DNA of 64,000 nt, from contig VIIQ02000157.1 in the NCBI GenBank assembly GCA_007449985.2, positions 62,001 through 126,000 on the forward strand, read 5' to 3'. Shown here piece after piece: positions 1-39,300 of this stretch (within the stretch, counting starts at the first letter, position 1; the number at the start of each line of letters is the position of its first letter). Origin of the DNA: Desmodesmus armatus. Lineage: Eukaryota > Chlorophyta > Chlorophyceae > Sphaeropleales > Scenedesmaceae. Under the pieces are notes generated by a model. It saw only the letters and a program-made list of their open reading frames with translations. It had not been told where the DNA came from and ran no database searches. The position numbers and the translations under genes are program-made.

Positions 1-1499
1 TCCAAAAGCTGCACGGCACCACAGACCGCTGGATGCACTGCGCGCAAGCATGCAAAGGTGAGGAGTGCAGGGCGCAGGAGTAAGCAGAGGTGTGCAAAAA
101 CACGAGTGTAAGACACGAGCTGTGTTCCACACCTGTGTTCAAGCACACCCTGACGCCTGCGCCCTGCACTGCTCACCCTTTGCATGCTTGCGCGCAGTGC
201 AACCAGCGAGGGTACATGACACTGCTCCCTTCACACCAAACTCAAAACAAACGGAGCATGCTAGTGCGAGCGCGTAGGGCGAGTTAGGGCAGGGGAGCAG
301 GCAGGCAGTGCGGAATGAGCCGCGTGGAGTTGTGCCAGGCACTTCCAACATCCTCACAGGATGCATCAGGAAGGTATCTGGTAATGACGGATGCAAGCCT
401 GGTCACATACCATCCTCCGGGGTGTGCTGATAACATGAAAGAATGCACAGGGGGCAAGAGGTGGGGGCGGGCTGGGGCAAGGCAGAGTGCGCAGGCATAC
501 AGTCGGGGTGCTGAGGGCGATGCAAGGCGCTGGCGCCGAATGCAGGGCGTCCTGCAGCAGCAGCAAGGCCCACATGCTGTAGCACAGTGTACGAATGCAG
601 AGCACACGTTAGGTGGTGCTGCAGGAGAGCGCAGGATGGCAGAAAGTATGCGGCGTGGATCCTGCGCGCAGCACACCACTGAGACAAAAGGAGGCAAGGA
701 GCGGTACAGGCGCAGTGACAGCACCATGTGGTGAGTCAGTCCCTTGGTCAACCTGTTAGGCATGAACTATCCAGTAATTGCTGCGCATGGCGACATTTAT
801 GGAGACCCGCATCCATCCAGTCCCAAGGATGGGCCCCGGCTCTCTCAGTCAGGCGTGGGACAGAAGGCTGCTGGTGAAAAAAGGGTGTGTTGACTAGTAG
901 CAGGACAGGAGCATGGTGTCCATGGGCAGGACCAGACATCCCAAGTGCACACCGTGAGCCCTGGCCTGCACCATGGCACCCCAACAACAACAGCAGCAGC
1001 AGCATCGCTCCTGATATGCGTGTGTACAAAATTGCAAGCCGCAGGCCTTTTGACTCCACCAGCTGCAGCTGCATGTGAGACACGGCTGCATCCTGCAGCC
1101 TTGCTCCTCTGCTGTTACAGCCATGGGCTCGTGTAGGTTACAGTCGGTGGCACAGGTGTTGGAGGCATGCACGTAGGCAATAACGGGCAGAGTCTGATGC
1201 TTTTGGGTTAATGGTATTGAAAAGCACTTTGCTGCACCTATATGGCATGTGCTGGGCTGTTTGCGCTGCTTGTGCTTGGTGATGGCAGCCGACAGCATAT
1301 GGCACCCCTGATGTCCCCCAGCTGAGCCAGAAACGCACATCAGACATCTTATAATACCATAAAACCTTGCTTCAGCGATCAAGCAGCTGGGCAGGGCATG
1401 CCTTGGGTCCGTGCTGCCCCCCTGCCCACGAATGCAAGGTGTAACTTATGGGGGACGTCAGCCCAGGTGCAAGATCTCTAACCCAGCTTGAGTGCTCAC
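1..1499. other. No confident gene; probably downstream part of the ankyrin gene
   Basis: This stretch lies 3' of the ankyrin exon on the minus strand, so it should contain that gene's first intron and perhaps later exons or UTR. I looked on the minus strand for further ankyrin-repeat sequence and found none that joins in phase. Open frames on both strands are rich in Cys, His and Ala, as expected of GC-rich non-coding DNA. The remaining exons may lie beyond the window start. Confidence 0.4.
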
Positions 1500-27358: not shown

Positions 27359-30300
27359 ATGGATCGCCGACACCACCAGCAGCAGCGGCACTGCGGCTGG
27401 GTGCTGGTCACAGCAGTTTTGGTCTGGACGCTGCTGGCAGGGCCATGCCAAGCCTTGCCCAATGTGGACATCAGCATAGGGCCCCCTACAGCCAAGACAG
27501 CGGCCATCAGCTATACGTGGGGCCTTGCAGCGTCAGTGACGCCGCCACAGGTGGCCATGCAGTTCACAGAAGCACGGCCGGTAAGCTTGCACAGTCTGGT
27601 GCTTGTTGGGGGTTAGGGGAGGGTGGGAGGGGGGGGGGGGGTCCACCAGCCTCATCTTCAGCCTTAAGGTCTGCAGCGATTGTCGTCCAGGATCAGGTGT
27701 GCCAACACATAAATTACAAGGAAACAAGGCAGCATCACAGATGCTTGCTTGTGCTGCCAGCTGCTGCTGCATGCAGCTGTGTGTGCAACGACAGCAGTTG
27801 GGTTGCCGTGTGGTGTCCCCACACATCACATCATATCACGGCACCACATCACTCTCTCATCCCATCACATGCACACGTGAAAGTAACACACAACCTGTTG
27901 CCGGGATGTGCTACCCAAAGATTTTGAGCCTGTGTCTGCTATCCTTTCATGCTTTCCTTTCCTGCTCTCCTGTCCTTTCCTGCATGCAGATCACGTGGAT
28001 CATCAATGCTACCCGTTCCTACAGTTTCACAGGCACTATCTCGGGCAGTGTCAGGATTGCGCGGACGCTCACAAACTTGGGTGCAGTGGCCTGGTCAGCA
28101 GTGGGCATCTCTGTGCGGCAGGTAAGGATGTTTGTGACAGATACAGTGCCCTTAACAGTCATTCTAACAGTAAGGACGGACAACAACAGTTGCCCGGGGC
28201 TGTAGCAGTCTGTAATGGCCAGTCAAATTGGGTGATTGAGATGGCAGTATGCACTTGCATGGTGGTGACGGTAATGCAGGGGGCAGCTGGGGTGTGGTGA
28301 TGTTTGCTCCCAAGCAAGGGTGGCATGCAGTTTTGACCACCATTTTTAGCACGCATGACGTATGCGTTGTGAGACAGGCATGTGGGGCGCGTGGGACTAG
28401 GGCTTGCAAACGATTAGGAAGCCGCACACAGCGCTTGGTTCTGTCAGGCAGATCGCAGTGTCCTGCCACCAGACCCCTCGCGCCAGCAGCAACAGACATG
28501 CATAGCCATCACACGCGTACTCCCTCTCCTCCCTCCACCACGCCCTCCACCTCGCCTTTTTGCTCACGGTCAACGAGGTGTGCCTTTGTGGCTTTCACGA
28601 GTGGCTCGGATCATCCGAGCCACTCGTGAAAGCCATGAAGGCACACCTCGTTGACCGTGAGCAAAAAGGTGGAGGGCGTGGTGGAGGTACGTGACGTGTA
28701 GTTGCGTTAGCGAAGCTCTTTCCCAAAAGGGCTAAGGATAAAATCGTGTGCCTGCAAGGGCGGACAGGTGGGCATGAAGAACAGCATCTGGTCAGGAATG
28801 GTTGAGGACATGGGGGGGGGGGACTAGTGGTGTGCTGAGACCCACTGCATTCTTCACAAACGGGATGCCCTGCCGATACAAAAAGCCCAAACTGGGCAGC
28901 CGAAGTGTACAGAAATCTTGACAGTCACGCACCGCTTCCAGGCGCGATCGCCCGGTCAACCTTGCAGGCAGTCTTGATCTTGGCTCTCAGATCCTGACAG
29001 CCGAGATCCAGACCTGCCTGCAAGGGTTGACCGGGCGATCGCGCCTGGAAGCGGTGCGTGACTGTCGAGATCTCTGTACTGGTGACTCACTGTACTAGTG
29101 ACATGACTCATGACCAGTACCGACCTTTTCAGGCTGGCAAGGGGGCCTGCAACTATGCACAAGCACACAAAGACTATCAGCGCGTACCATATACCTTTTC
29201 TACCAAGGAAGGGCAGCCCGGCAGTCGCTGACAAAATGCGACAGTGCAACTCTGCAGGCCAGTCAGCACCTGCTGTCAGTTAGGCCCTGCAGTCGGCAGG
29301 GCAGCTGTGTGCCCTCTGTCCAGCACTACTGCCAAATAGCCATCATTCACTCTGAAAGAAAGGCCCAACAAAAGGCTGTTTAATACTGATAAGAGCTACA
29401 CTGTGGTCAAGCCTCTACTGCAGGATCTTGCAAAACGGGTCTGCTTGCCTGAACAATCATGGACACGATGGTGTCCGTGTACGTCATGAACATGTCTTGG
29501 GTGGGCGGATCTGCCAACGGCGCTGTTGGGTGATCTACCCACCCAAGACATGTTCATGACGTACACCGACACCCTCGTGTCCATGATTGTTCAGGCAAGT
29601 TACAGCTTACAGTCGACAGTAGAGCTAGTAAACTTTCATCGAGGACGGCAGTGAAACTGTGGTGGCGCAGGTGACTGGCCACCTGCAGCGACATGGCAAG
29701 GGCGACGGCAAGGCCACCAAGGGGGGGGGGGCAACAACACACGCATCATACATGAATGTTTGATGGACGGGAAGCATGCCCTGCTGCGGGGATTTATATA
29801 ATGCTGCTACAAGCACGGCTGGCATCATCAGCAGCTACGTCCTGGCAATGCTGCTGGAAGCACAGCCGGCATCATCATCTGCAAAGCACATCACACCGGC
29901 AGCTGTGCTGGTCAGCGAGCACGGAAGCAGCAGTGGCAGAGCCAGGCGCAAAACCCGTCCCTGACAGACCGCTGCAGCCGTCACGGCTCTGCAGAATACC
30001 TGGATCAAGCGCCTCCCTCCCTCAGTCTTGGGTAGTTCGATGAGCAGGCGCTGAAACCTTCAGCGCCTGCTGATTGAACTACCCAAGACTGAGGGAGGAC
30101 GGCGTTTGATACAGGTATCTTGCAGCTGCTGGGGTAGTATGATGTCACCAGCAGTGCAGCTTTGTGAGCACAGCGAAGGGGGGGTCTCAGTGGAGGGCAA
30201 CGGTCGATGCACATGCCAGGGGCCAAGACAGCGCCGCTGTTCAAAAGCAACTGGGGCCCTTATGCAGCGCTGGCCCTCATCAGCATTGGCCGATGCGTCG

Positions 30301-33300
30301 GAACTCTTAGAGCATCGTGCACCCATGCTTTCACCTGGACATGCTGCAGTCATAAGTGGCATGTGCATGTGGATCCATATGCCTGTAAGCTCCTCATTTC
30401 ACCGTCATCTGCACCACACACATGAGCTATGTCACTCTAACCCATGCTGCTGGCCGCTGTGGTGTGCTGTGGTGTGCTGTGTGCAGGGTGACAGGGTCCT
30501 CCTGAGCACCAATGCTGTCTGCACCCCGGGCACCCTAGACATGGTTGGTGTCACTCTAACCCATGCTGCTGGCCGCTGTGGTGTGCTGTGGTGTGCTGTG
30601 TGCAGGGTGACAGGGTCCTCCTGAGCACCAATGCTGTCTGCACCCCTGGCAACCAGTTCCTGCCTCAAGGCAGCAGCTCAGATCAGCTGGCACAGGTGTC
30701 GGCAGTTGTCAACTGCGCTTTTACGTAAGTGTGCAACCTCACACAGGGGCGGGTTGAAGGGACAGGATTATGATTGCAGTTGCAAGGATCTTACTCAGTA
30801 CCATATATGTTCCCTCCGATGTTAGTGTGGCTAAGACAGTTTTGGTCACTGCACTGCAGTACTGCCAGTCACATGCTGTTGACAGCATCAATGCTGCGGG
30901 GTGATGGCAACCGTGCTGTCAGTGTGCTGGCTGAACATAGAGCTGCATGACAACCAGCACACTGACTGACTTGCTGAAAATAGAGTATTGGTGCAGTAAC
31001 AGGAATCTTTGCTGCATCCCTTCTACCTTATTAGCAAACCAACAGGTTGGCAACTGCATGACAACAATTTCACCTGGTGACTGCACCACACCTGAGTATA
31101 TGTTGTTAGGTGTCATCAGCACACAAAATTGATGGTACAATCTCTGCACAATTGGCAGCAAGTGGTGTCTCTGCGTTCCAGTTGTCGCCAATCCTCAATT
31201 CCCTTCGCTGGCTGTGTCGGTTGCAGGTTTGGGCCCAACCTGGGGGTTGGAGCCACGCCCTTCTCCCCTTCAGGTCTGCCCCCTGACCTTCTGGGTGAAG
31301 CCTCGCCAAACAGGGTAGGTGCAGCAGCCCCAAAGCTGGCCCTCTTACAGCTTAGTGAGCTAGAGGCTGGCAGCTCATATGGCTCTGACTCGATCCTTGA
31401 TCGTTTGGCCTTCTTGCTGTGCCAGCTGAAATGGGGTGCTGTTGTGTGGGTGTTGCAACCCCATGTGCTGTAATAACAGGGTTTTTGGTGTGCAATACAA
31501 CAAGGATCTGCCAGAAGAGGTCTAGGGCTGTGTGGCGCAGTGAGCCTCATCACCATTCATTTTGCCTTGGCGTGTGCTGCCTCCCCTGCAGGTTTTTGAG
31601 TTGGCTGCCAACGTCACCCTCACCACGGGTCAAGTGGAGCAGGCAACAGGCACACAAACCTTCACCTTCGACATGCCACAGCCGGTGGGTAGGCCTTGCG
31701 TGAGCAAAGGTTATCGAGGAATTGTTAAATTTGATGAAGCTTTGCAGTGTTGTCCTTGCGCTGATGTAGAGGTGGGGGTCGACTTCAGAAGGCACCCTGC
31801 AGGCAGAGTGCATTTGGCAGGGCTGTGACATGCGCTGACGCAGCTGGGTACGTGCCATTGCCTGCAAGCATGTCTGTGGTACTCAAGGGGACAGTCAGCA
31901 GCCAAACCGAGGGAGCGGCCCCCACACAGAACCGCAGTTGTTGTTGAAGCATGATGCCAATGGACTGTGTGGGTAGCGTTTTTTTGAAACCGGTACACCC
32001 TGTTTCCTTGTGTCAGGGGTGGAGTTGCTCCCCCCCCGGGGGCCCTGCTTTTCACAGCAAGTGCTCCTTGCTCCCCCCCCCCCCCTTTCAGCACGTTTTC
32101 CCTGCAATTTGGCCGGATCTCAGTTGCTCCCCCCCCCCTGAGCTGCCTCCAGACTGATTCCGCTCCTTGCTCCACCCCCCTCAAAGAAACAGGGTGTACC
32201 GCTTTCAAAAAAACGCTACCCTGTGAGGCTGTAGGGTTTCCCTGCAATCAAGTTCCTGTGTGTAAGACACTTGAAGGAAGACTGTGTGTGATATCATGCT
32301 GTGCGTGCCATTGCCTGCCACCGCAGATCATTGGCGAGTGTGCTACTGTGCAGGACACCTGGGCGCAGGTAGGCACAGCGCGGCACAGATGGGCTCAATA
32401 CCCTTGTGGCATGCCTGGCATGCAGCTCGACACATGCCATGCGGCAGGCTGTTTCCAGACACATGACTGTGTGCTTTGCCGTGTGACGTCCACTTGTGCA
32501 CTGCTGTCAAACAGATGTGGTGGTAGCGGCAAAGCCACATCCCCCCCCCCAGGATGCTTACATTGTCAGACAAGCTGTTAGTCAGCATAGTACGAAGTAT
32601 GTCATCATGAAATAGGGCCAGCTTGTGGATGTCGTGCGGCCTCCAATTGGGCGTTCTGTTGCAGCCCTTTTTCTCATCAACATGTGGTTTTCATCATTAC
32701 TTCAAGGTCTCAGCAGCACGCTCACGCAACAAGCTGTGTGACTGTGTTCTCTGCAGGTGTCTCTGCCCGTTCCCCTAGGGTTCAGTGGCCCCACTGACGG
32801 GGTGTCCAACCCGGCCGTCCCCGCCCCCACCAACCCGCCCAATCTGCAGCAGCGCATCTGCGCTCCCGCAGGCTTTGCCTACGTAAGCACCATACCTGCC
32901 TCACAGGCTACCCAGGGAGCTTGCGGGGAGTGGGCGGTAAGTGGACAGTTACATCTGATGCTAAACAAAGCAATGGGAGTCCAGTAAAGTCCGAGACTTG
33001 CTGTTCTTCGCTACGCACCTTTGCAGACGAGCGGCTGCTATGGCATCAGCCTGATGTTGTCAAAGTGCAGCAGCACCTCAGCCATGGCCGCAATGTAGTC
33101 ACTGCCAAAACTAACAGCACCGTCTGACATGATGTATCTTGTGTGGTGTGTATGCCCTGCAGTTCACTGCCGCGGCTTCTCTGACCCCTTCCAACGGCCC
33201 ACAGGGCACCATTGGTGGCTCCACCGCCACTCGCACAGCAAGGGCGTCCATCTCAGGCTGCACTCCCGCCCCAGGTCAAGCAGCCCCTGGCGTTCCCCAG

Positions 33301-36300: not shown

Positions 36301-39300
36301 AAAGCAATACATGTGATTGTGATAGCAAACTTCAAGCGCTGTCGTCAACAAGAGCCGTTCGTTGTGTCCCGTTTTCTGTCAACTGCAGGTGGTTGGCCCA
36401 ACAGACTCCCTAACGGGTGAGATGGTGCCGGCAGCTGGCAAGGTCATCTGCAGTGGTGCAACTTACAGCTTCTCTGGGGAGTTTGGTCCCATTGGCTCAA
36501 AGCAGGGCCGCAGGTGTGGCGCACATGTAAGTGGGTTGGACTGCAGGGAGGGTGGCTGAGTGCGAACTTAGAGGGGGACAAGAATGCAGAAGAGGTTGGT
36601 CACAGGCAGAGGGGAAGGGCAATGGTCAAGGCTGGCGGTTTGCGCGTTCGAAAGGGGGTTCCCTGTTGAAAGCTTGTGCACACATTTGCTCCTCAGAAAC
36701 CCAAGTCGCGCTGACTGGTGTCTAGAAAGGCACCCAGTCCCCACATTCCTTCCTCTACCACGGTGTACAGGATTGAACTGCATTCGTACAGGCAGCACAT
36801 GCACTATACTATGTGCTGCTCCCAACACGCTGCTTGCGCCCTGCAGGTGATCCTGAGTGCAACAGCACGGCCCCAGGGTTCCGGCCTGTCCACAGCAACT
36901 GCCCGTGGTACCACCGTGGTCCCCATTGACGAGCCGGACTGCCAGAAGGGTGGAGATGCTGCCACATCTGCAGACAGCAGCGACAACGGCAACCCTGCAG
37001 TACAGGTCCTGAAGGTGAGGGGGGTCTAGAAATAGTTATCTTGGGGCCGTAAAAATTGGATGTGTGCTGCAACAGCCGGATATGCACTGCTGGATCTTGT
37101 GTGCTCGTGTCGGTGCACGCTGCTTTGTACTTCTGACCTCAGTATTCCTGTTTCTCCGCATGTCTGCCTGTCGTGGTAATCTCCAACAGTTTGGGCTTTT
37201 TGTGGCTGGCTGACATGCTTGTAGGTGGGTGTTGCTGACCTGGCGCCAACCAGCGTGACCGAGTATGCCTGGAGGGTGAAGTTGGCGATGAAGCCACCAA
37301 AGGACCCCGTGAAGTTCAGCGAGAATGCCACAGTGAAGTCCGAGGTTGAGGTAAGGGCTGAGTTGCATCAGCATCTGAGAGTGGAATTGTTGCTTTGCAA
37401 GAGTCACCACCAACTTCCTGCAGCAAGTCTGGCCATGGCCTGCAGGGTAGTGCCGCATGTTCTGAGGTGCTTGGCAATAGCGCAACGGTTCAGCAGTGAC
37501 CACAGATCCTGCTTCCAGCAATGCAGATCCACACATCAGCACATGCAACACACCATCATATGCCGCACATATTGGTGTAGATGAATGACATTGGCTGCAG
37601 TGCAGTCTGCAAGCCTGCCTATGGGCAGCAAATCCACCTTGCACCCACTGCACCCCTGCACTGTGGCCATTGCACCCATCGCTGCGTCGTCGTGCGCCGG
37701 TTGCCGCTGCTGCCACACTGCTGCAGGTCACGAGGTCTGTCAGCAGTTCCACCCGCCGCCTGTCTGGGACTGTCAACATAGAGAATTCCAGCGACAGACC
37801 CTTTACAATTTTGGAGGTCAGGGTCAACGCCACACTTGCTGTCAGGAGGCGCCGCAGCACCAGCAGCACCACTGGCAACAGGCGAGCAGACAACAGCGGC
37901 AGCAGTGACAGACAACCTGCAAGCCGGGGCCTGCGGCGGCTGCTGCGGCTGTTGCAGCAGGGTGTTGGCCGCCAAACCCGGCTGCCACCCCCAAAAGCCC
38001 AGCTGCTGGTGCTGCCAATGCTGCCAAAGAGCGGGCTATGGCTGTGAATGGCCCTACAGCTAGCTCTGCCAGACAGCAGTCAGGGGATGGTGACAGCGCC
38101 TTGGACCTGTTCAGTGTAATGCTGGGCAGGCCTGGAGGGCCCGCTGACAACAGGAATTCTGCAAGTACCACCACCACCAACAGCAGCAGCAGCACCAACA
38201 GAGGAAACAGCCCCAGCCCAGCCCCTGGCAGCAGCAGCAGCAGCAGACCTCCTGCCCCTACCGGCCCATCTGTCGCTGCAACTGTGACATGTCCAACGGA
38301 CAGGAGCGGCGCGATCGCGCTGCCGGCGGCTACCAGGCGAGGCGGGGGTTCAAATCCCAGCAGTGTCAGTTGCAAGTTCACAGTGACCATGCCCCCGCAA
38401 GCCACCCTGGCAACAACTGGCAGGCTGCAGGTGGTGGTGGTGGCGAGGCCAGCAGCTGGTGGCAGCGACAGCCGCGGCGGCAGCAGCAGAGACAACAACA
38501 GCAGCAGTGCTGTCGGGCGTGTGCGGGGCGAGGGGCCCTTCGCTCTGAAGGACAGGTATGGTGATGGGCTGTTGGTCCTCAAAGGGCTGAGCAGCCTCTT
38601 GGGCCCTGCAAGTTGGGGCTTTGTGGTGTGGCTGGCAGCAGTGGAATGGCAATGCAAGACTCATGCCAGTCACTGACTCCAGGGCACAGTTGCAAGCGAA
38701 GGCAGCTGCGCTAGCCGTTATGTCTTTGCAATGCGAACGGCTGACTTGCTGTTTGGTTGTTATGGCACATGCATGTGCAACTCGTTATCACAATCTGGCC
38801 TGCCTGTATGGAGCATCTTGCTGAGCCGACTTGTGCCTTCGCGCGTGTCACTGCCTGTTCCATCTGTGCAGCAAGCCGCAGACTGTTGGCTCCTGCGCCC
38901 GCATCACCGTCGCACCAGCAGCCCAGCAGCTGGCTCCAAACCCCAGTAACTTACTGAGGCTGCGGGCCACACCTGCGCCCACGCAGTCTGAGGGCAGGAA
39001 CAGGCCGCAGCAGAGCCCGCCTGCCGCCCCTGACAGCCAGCAGATCTGTGACAGCACCAACTATGCCTACGATGAACTCGTGGGGCCAGTGAGCAGCGAT
39101 GCGTGTGGCTCGTATCAGGTGAGATGGCCACCTCACATGGGCTGTTGGGGGTACACACACAGAAACCACTATTACATCATGGCGCTGCTGCATGCAGGCC
39201 GGCGTTTGTGCGACCTTTGAATCTCCAGCACTTGCGCAATGCCTGTGCCTTCCTGTAAATGATTGTGGCAGCTGTCTATGCATGGTAGGGGCCCTCTAGG

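Follow-up and report, generated by a model that had tools for sequence, protein, structure and literature searches.

Four unrelated long hairpins clustered in one intron: candidate small-RNA precursors in an alga-like genome

The second intron of a gene in the window (the whole 64-kb stretch of DNA analysed here) harbors four long inverted repeats, H1 to H4, which raises the question of why such hairpins lie so close together and whether they could serve as precursors of small RNAs. The host gene is read on the plus strand and begins with exon 1 (27359-27580), intron 1 (27581-27989) and exon 2 (27990-28121), a segment (27359-28121) with no Pfam match. Intron 2 (28122-30605, plus strand), which carries the four hairpins, comprises 2,484 nt with GT-AG ends and is flanked by exon 2 and by exon 3 (30606-30724), both of which have phase-consistent junctions with exon 1 in a gene model built from the sequence. 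It is the longest of the 14 modelled introns, the runner-up measuring 867 nt, and this bears out the earlier note on this DNA, which had described it as about 2.48 kb and the longest in the gene. The model ends at 37350, and the gene may extend further. The same note had called the product a matrix protein, a label without Pfam support, as a search of the host protein (158 and 336 residues) returned no match; by eye, the protein has a signal-peptide-like start and proline-rich exons. A search for paralogues using the first 157 residues as query (E up to 0.1) recovered only the gene itself in all four matches. The junction between exons 3 and 4 (30606-31684) is out of frame as modelled in this assembly, which may reflect use of another donor, an error in the assembly or damage to the gene. 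No tRNA genes were found in the window.

The four inverted repeats reported earlier are all present, at or close to where they had been placed. Each was folded on the plus strand, and pair counts are those of the sense-strand minimum-energy fold. H1 (28532-28687) forms 74 pairs with a terminal loop of 3 nt and a 5-nt bulge in its 5' arm, H2 (28907-29079) forms 87 pairs around a 3-nt loop, H3 (29444-29599) forms 72 pairs around a 4-nt loop, and H4 (29989-30125) forms 64 pairs around a 3-nt loop. Loops of 3, 42, 24 and 3 nt had been assigned to them previously; the outer two values stand, whereas the stretches of 42 and 24 nt are mostly paired. The two arms differ at 3 of 76, 6 of 81, 7 of 78 and 8 of 67 columns in H1, H2, H3 and H4, respectively, with perfect runs of 32, 40, 29 and 23 columns. 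Folding energies are -156.6, -169.9, -145.2 and -126.6 kcal/mol (between -0.85 and -0.97 kcal/mol per nt), and stems continue without interruption for 26-53 pairs. None of the 200 dinucleotide-preserving shuffles made for each hairpin was as stable (z-scores of -20.9, -21.1, -17.7 and -14.1), and when 798 sliding segments of 160 nt from across the window are ranked by stability, the top three fall on H3, H1 and H4.

Folding the intron as a whole, a check that the earlier note had proposed, leaves most of each stem in place, with 53 of 57, 54 of 55, 70 of 75 and 61 of 67 expected pairs retained in H1 to H4. In principle the stems could influence the host pre-mRNA directly, bringing the splice sites of a very long intron closer together or delaying splicing, for example, and both their location in the longest modelled intron and their formation within the whole-intron fold would agree with such a role. 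However, none of the stems brings the two intron ends together, and the intronic miR1157 stem of Chlamydomonas is reported to be processed without blocking or requiring splicing, and to leave splicing unaffected (PMC4817775). We consider a role of this kind very improbable.

The density of such structures was compared with the surrounding genome by scanning for inverted pairs with arms of at least 25 nt, at least 85% identity and a span of at most 400 nt, simple repeats being excluded. Six pairs were found in the 64-kb window, four of which are H1 to H4. The same scan of 18 other stretches of the genome (170,360 bases, including 5,000 N) gave a single pair, whose arms measure 26 nt; no pair reached an arm length of 35 nt. 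Counting only arms of at least 35 nt, there is thus one pair in about 227 kb outside intron 2, which combines the rest of the window with 165 kb of readable sequence elsewhere, against four inside 2.5 kb. By hand calculation, this rate predicts about 0.01 such pairs for the intron and gives four of them a Poisson probability of less than one in a million. Four hairpins in 1.6 kb are therefore more than chance. Because the background sample is small, its rate depends on a single pair and an earlier reader selected the window, these figures show clustering and not genome-wide uniqueness. An inverted pair with 40-nt arms (95% identity) and a 171-nt C-rich spacer lies at 31971-32221, within the host's intron 4, and resembles a short transposon bounded by terminal repeats. 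Another, with 32-nt arms (97% identity) about 120 nt apart, lies at the left edge of the window (27-208).

Terminal loops of 3-4 nt in an assembly of 831 contigs could also point to fold-back of reads or of the assembly. Such fold-backs are unlikely because of the differences between arms given above, which affect 4-12% of columns, too much for simple read fold-backs; the arms are moreover short and mutually unrelated, and their flanks are unlike. An artefact is the least probable of the explanations weighed here.

The hairpins show no relationship to each other, as the earlier note had claimed, since all six pairwise similarity scores lie inside the shuffled range. The 5' arm of each was searched against the 116-Mb assembly (E up to 10) and recovered only itself and its partner arm. 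The search scored only the best candidates, of which one passed per arm, and could miss distant copies or short matches; since it did detect a 111-nt match of 88% at another place, copies of such quality should have appeared. Direct repeats at the hairpin ends, allowing 3 nt of slack, reach at best 1, 2, 1 and 3 nt for H1 to H4, which leaves no target-site duplication. Many genomic copies bordered by target-site duplications had been named earlier as the pattern that would speak against small-RNA precursors, and neither feature was found in the 116-Mb assembly or in the end repeats of at most 3 nt. The absence of shared sequence, of further copies and of longer end repeats argues against a foldback transposon, and the earlier view that the hairpins are not copies of one such element holds. 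They might still be remnants of foldback transposons or MITEs from four different families, an idea suggested by their inverted-repeat form, by transposon ends being a known source of miRNAs in V. carteri (Jordan, PMC5093975) and by the transposon-like, long-spacer pair in intron 4. Against this stand, besides the failure to find further copies of any arm and the short end repeats, stems that continue up to the terminal loop and enclose no internal region, and we regard a transposon origin as quite improbable.

Three further sources were considered and rejected. A search of 27600-31200 against Rfam (E up to 1) gave 16 matches, all below the gathering threshold, 13 of which overlap H1 to H4, and no known miRNA family was assigned. 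Origin from a parent or target gene by inverted duplication was not retained, as the searched arms match their own hairpin only and shorter blocks did no better. For a viral origin, 20-nt blocks of two hairpins, H1 and H3, had no exact match in viral contigs.

The reading that we favour, with a little better than an even chance of being right, is that H1 to H4 are independently formed inverted duplications that are transcribed in sense, diced and loaded into Argonaute as in Chlamydomonas. Four inverted duplications would have arisen independently within one intron and would be transcribed in sense with the host pre-mRNA. Their RNA is predicted to fold into near-perfect stems of 64-87 pairs, which a Dicer-like enzyme would cut into 20-22-nt small RNAs. 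These would then be loaded into Argonaute, like the intron-derived miRNAs and hairpin siRNAs of Chlamydomonas. The hairpins look young and species-specific, and their small RNAs may so far have few or no real targets. Loci so perfectly paired can also yield siRNAs instead of precise miRNAs.

Several features of the locus are those expected of miRNA precursors. Each hairpin is a stem-loop whose long duplex is more stable than its shuffles, and through its perfect run each offers 21 nt with no more than four mismatches to the opposite arm, the limit given in PMC5511227. As in intron-derived miRNAs, all four lie in sense orientation within an intron of a modelled protein-coding gene. Of 18 high-confidence miRNAs in Chlamydomonas, 9 are reported to be intronic (PMC4817775), and its precursors are described as exceeding those of Arabidopsis in duplex length and as having a lower energy per nucleotide (PMC4635600). 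H1 to H4 resemble algal precursors in form, and we therefore judge it somewhat more probable that they are diced than that they are not. Candidate processing enzymes are encoded in the genome: exons for Piwi domains occur at four places on three contigs, two of these places about 25 kb apart on C329, and RNase III exons at two loci, the contigs involved being C329, C545, C666, C25 and C114. On contig C114, the C-terminal part of an RNase III domain precedes the beginning of a second one, a Dicer-like arrangement. V. carteri, by comparison, is reported to have two Argonautes and one Dicer (PMC5093975), fewer than these four Piwi places and two RNase III loci.

Regulation of anything by H1 to H4 is a matter on which we are much less sure. 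One block per hairpin was searched in the genome with up to three mismatches. The 24-nt blocks of H1, H2 and H3 had no match outside the hairpins, and the 23-nt block of H4 had one site with three mismatches against three for its control pattern. Genes complementary to the arms, for which the earlier note had proposed to search the genome, were thus not found beyond the control level with these blocks of 23-24 nt. In 234 kb of sequence, 272 21-mers compared on both strands gave 4 sites against 4 for reversed controls at three mismatches, 24 against 16 at four and 169 against 138 at five, a slight excess that possibly stems from composition. The likeness to Chlamydomonas microRNA precursors proposed earlier is borne out as far as real, intronic, sense-oriented long duplexes are concerned, but not by genome-wide targets of the blocks.

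The arms themselves carry little trace of selection for pairing. Among the 21 substitutions between arms, nine keep a G-U pair in the sense RNA, four give A-C and eight give other mismatches. The sense strand folds better in three of the four hairpins, the antisense strand being slightly better in H3. The G-U excess is small and constitutes weak evidence for selection or strand preference. Sparing of a 21-nt block by the mismatches was not significant in H1 to H4 (P = 0.74, 0.10, 0.26 and 0.25; combined 0.21), and the perfect runs are no longer than random placement of mismatches permits. The earlier description of the products as regulators is thus a guess, because, among other points, no target above the control level was found for the blocks searched and selection on pairing is not significant.

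Intron 2 also bears marks of past rearrangement. Between H2 and H3, an unstranded 111-nt segment (29326-29436) has 87.5% identity to the organelle-like contig C278. Two pieces of this contig have 41% GC and tRNA genes, and its terminal pieces agree at 98.7% of 1984 columns, the pattern of a circular molecule of about 32 kb left open in assembly. The segment is probably a nuclear insert of organelle DNA. On the plus strand at 30430-30647, the acceptor region of intron 2 and the start of exon 3 are duplicated in tandem with a step of 119 nt, the extent being judged by eye. This duplication gives two acceptors, before 30487 and before 30606, the first of which would leave the exon and the second copy in different frames. 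Together with the short-looped palindromes, these scars suggest a site of repeated break repair or template switching.

These observations bring in a close rival to the small-RNA reading, namely that the intron is a neutral hotspot of palindrome birth, where template switching or break repair repeatedly makes quasi-palindromes that are tolerated in the intron and remain functionless, perhaps being diced by accident. It would account for the terminal loops of 3-4 nt, for the repair-like insert and acceptor duplication, for the missing signal of selection on pairing and for the failure of our searches to find a target or parent gene. The spread of arm divergence, from 3/76 to 8/67, would likewise fit separate formation times. 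All four stems are nearly intact, however, and the G-U excess leans weakly towards the sense RNA, both of which count against this rival. We hold a functionless hotspot to be a real possibility, though one short of probable.

If H1 to H4 are indeed diced as small-RNA precursors, intron 2 might be both a nursery and a carrier of miRNAs. Palindromes would be made locally and be transcribed and diced with the host immediately, the divergence from 4% to 12% would mark successive stages of miRNA birth, and transcription of the host would be coupled to four small RNAs. We consider this fuller picture unlikely. Single loci are the usual basis for inferring how new miRNA genes are born. With four unrelated and differently diverged hairpins in one intron, birth, dicing and decay could be compared under one and the same promoter and host gene, and the cluster would show whether palindrome formation has hotspots. 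Should no small RNAs arise, the locus would be a useful negative, in which perfect-looking precursors are ignored by the pathway.

Known systems resemble the locus in part. Animal intronic clusters (polycistrons, mirtrons) similarly place several hairpins in one host transcript (PMC12026948), but the stems here are far longer, come from an alga-like genome and are known from sequence alone. The miRNA genes that arise by inverted duplication share long near-perfect arms and youth (PMC5511227), while here the best-candidate search found no parent gene for any arm; most young algal miRNAs are argued to be neutral in the same source. Volvox carteri has comparably long and poorly conserved hairpins, along with phased siRNAs and transposon-derived miRNAs, and its 490 predicted miRNAs in 324 families are reported as unconserved in Chlamydomonas (PMC5093975); two reviews give a single miRNA as shared between these algae (PMC6129010, PMC12026948). 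Closest in form are the intron-derived miRNAs of Chlamydomonas reinhardtii such as cre-miR1157, which likewise have a long sense-strand stem in an intron of a protein-coding gene (PMC4817775) and a genome with Dicer-like and Argonaute genes, seen here as exons. The present locus differs from them in having four unrelated stems in one intron, in lacking an Rfam family at threshold and in being described purely from its DNA. Finally, complex Chlamydomonas precursors of up to 700 nt also combine several hairpins in one transcript (PMC4635600), whereas intron 2 presents four separate and complete long stems over about 1.6 kb.
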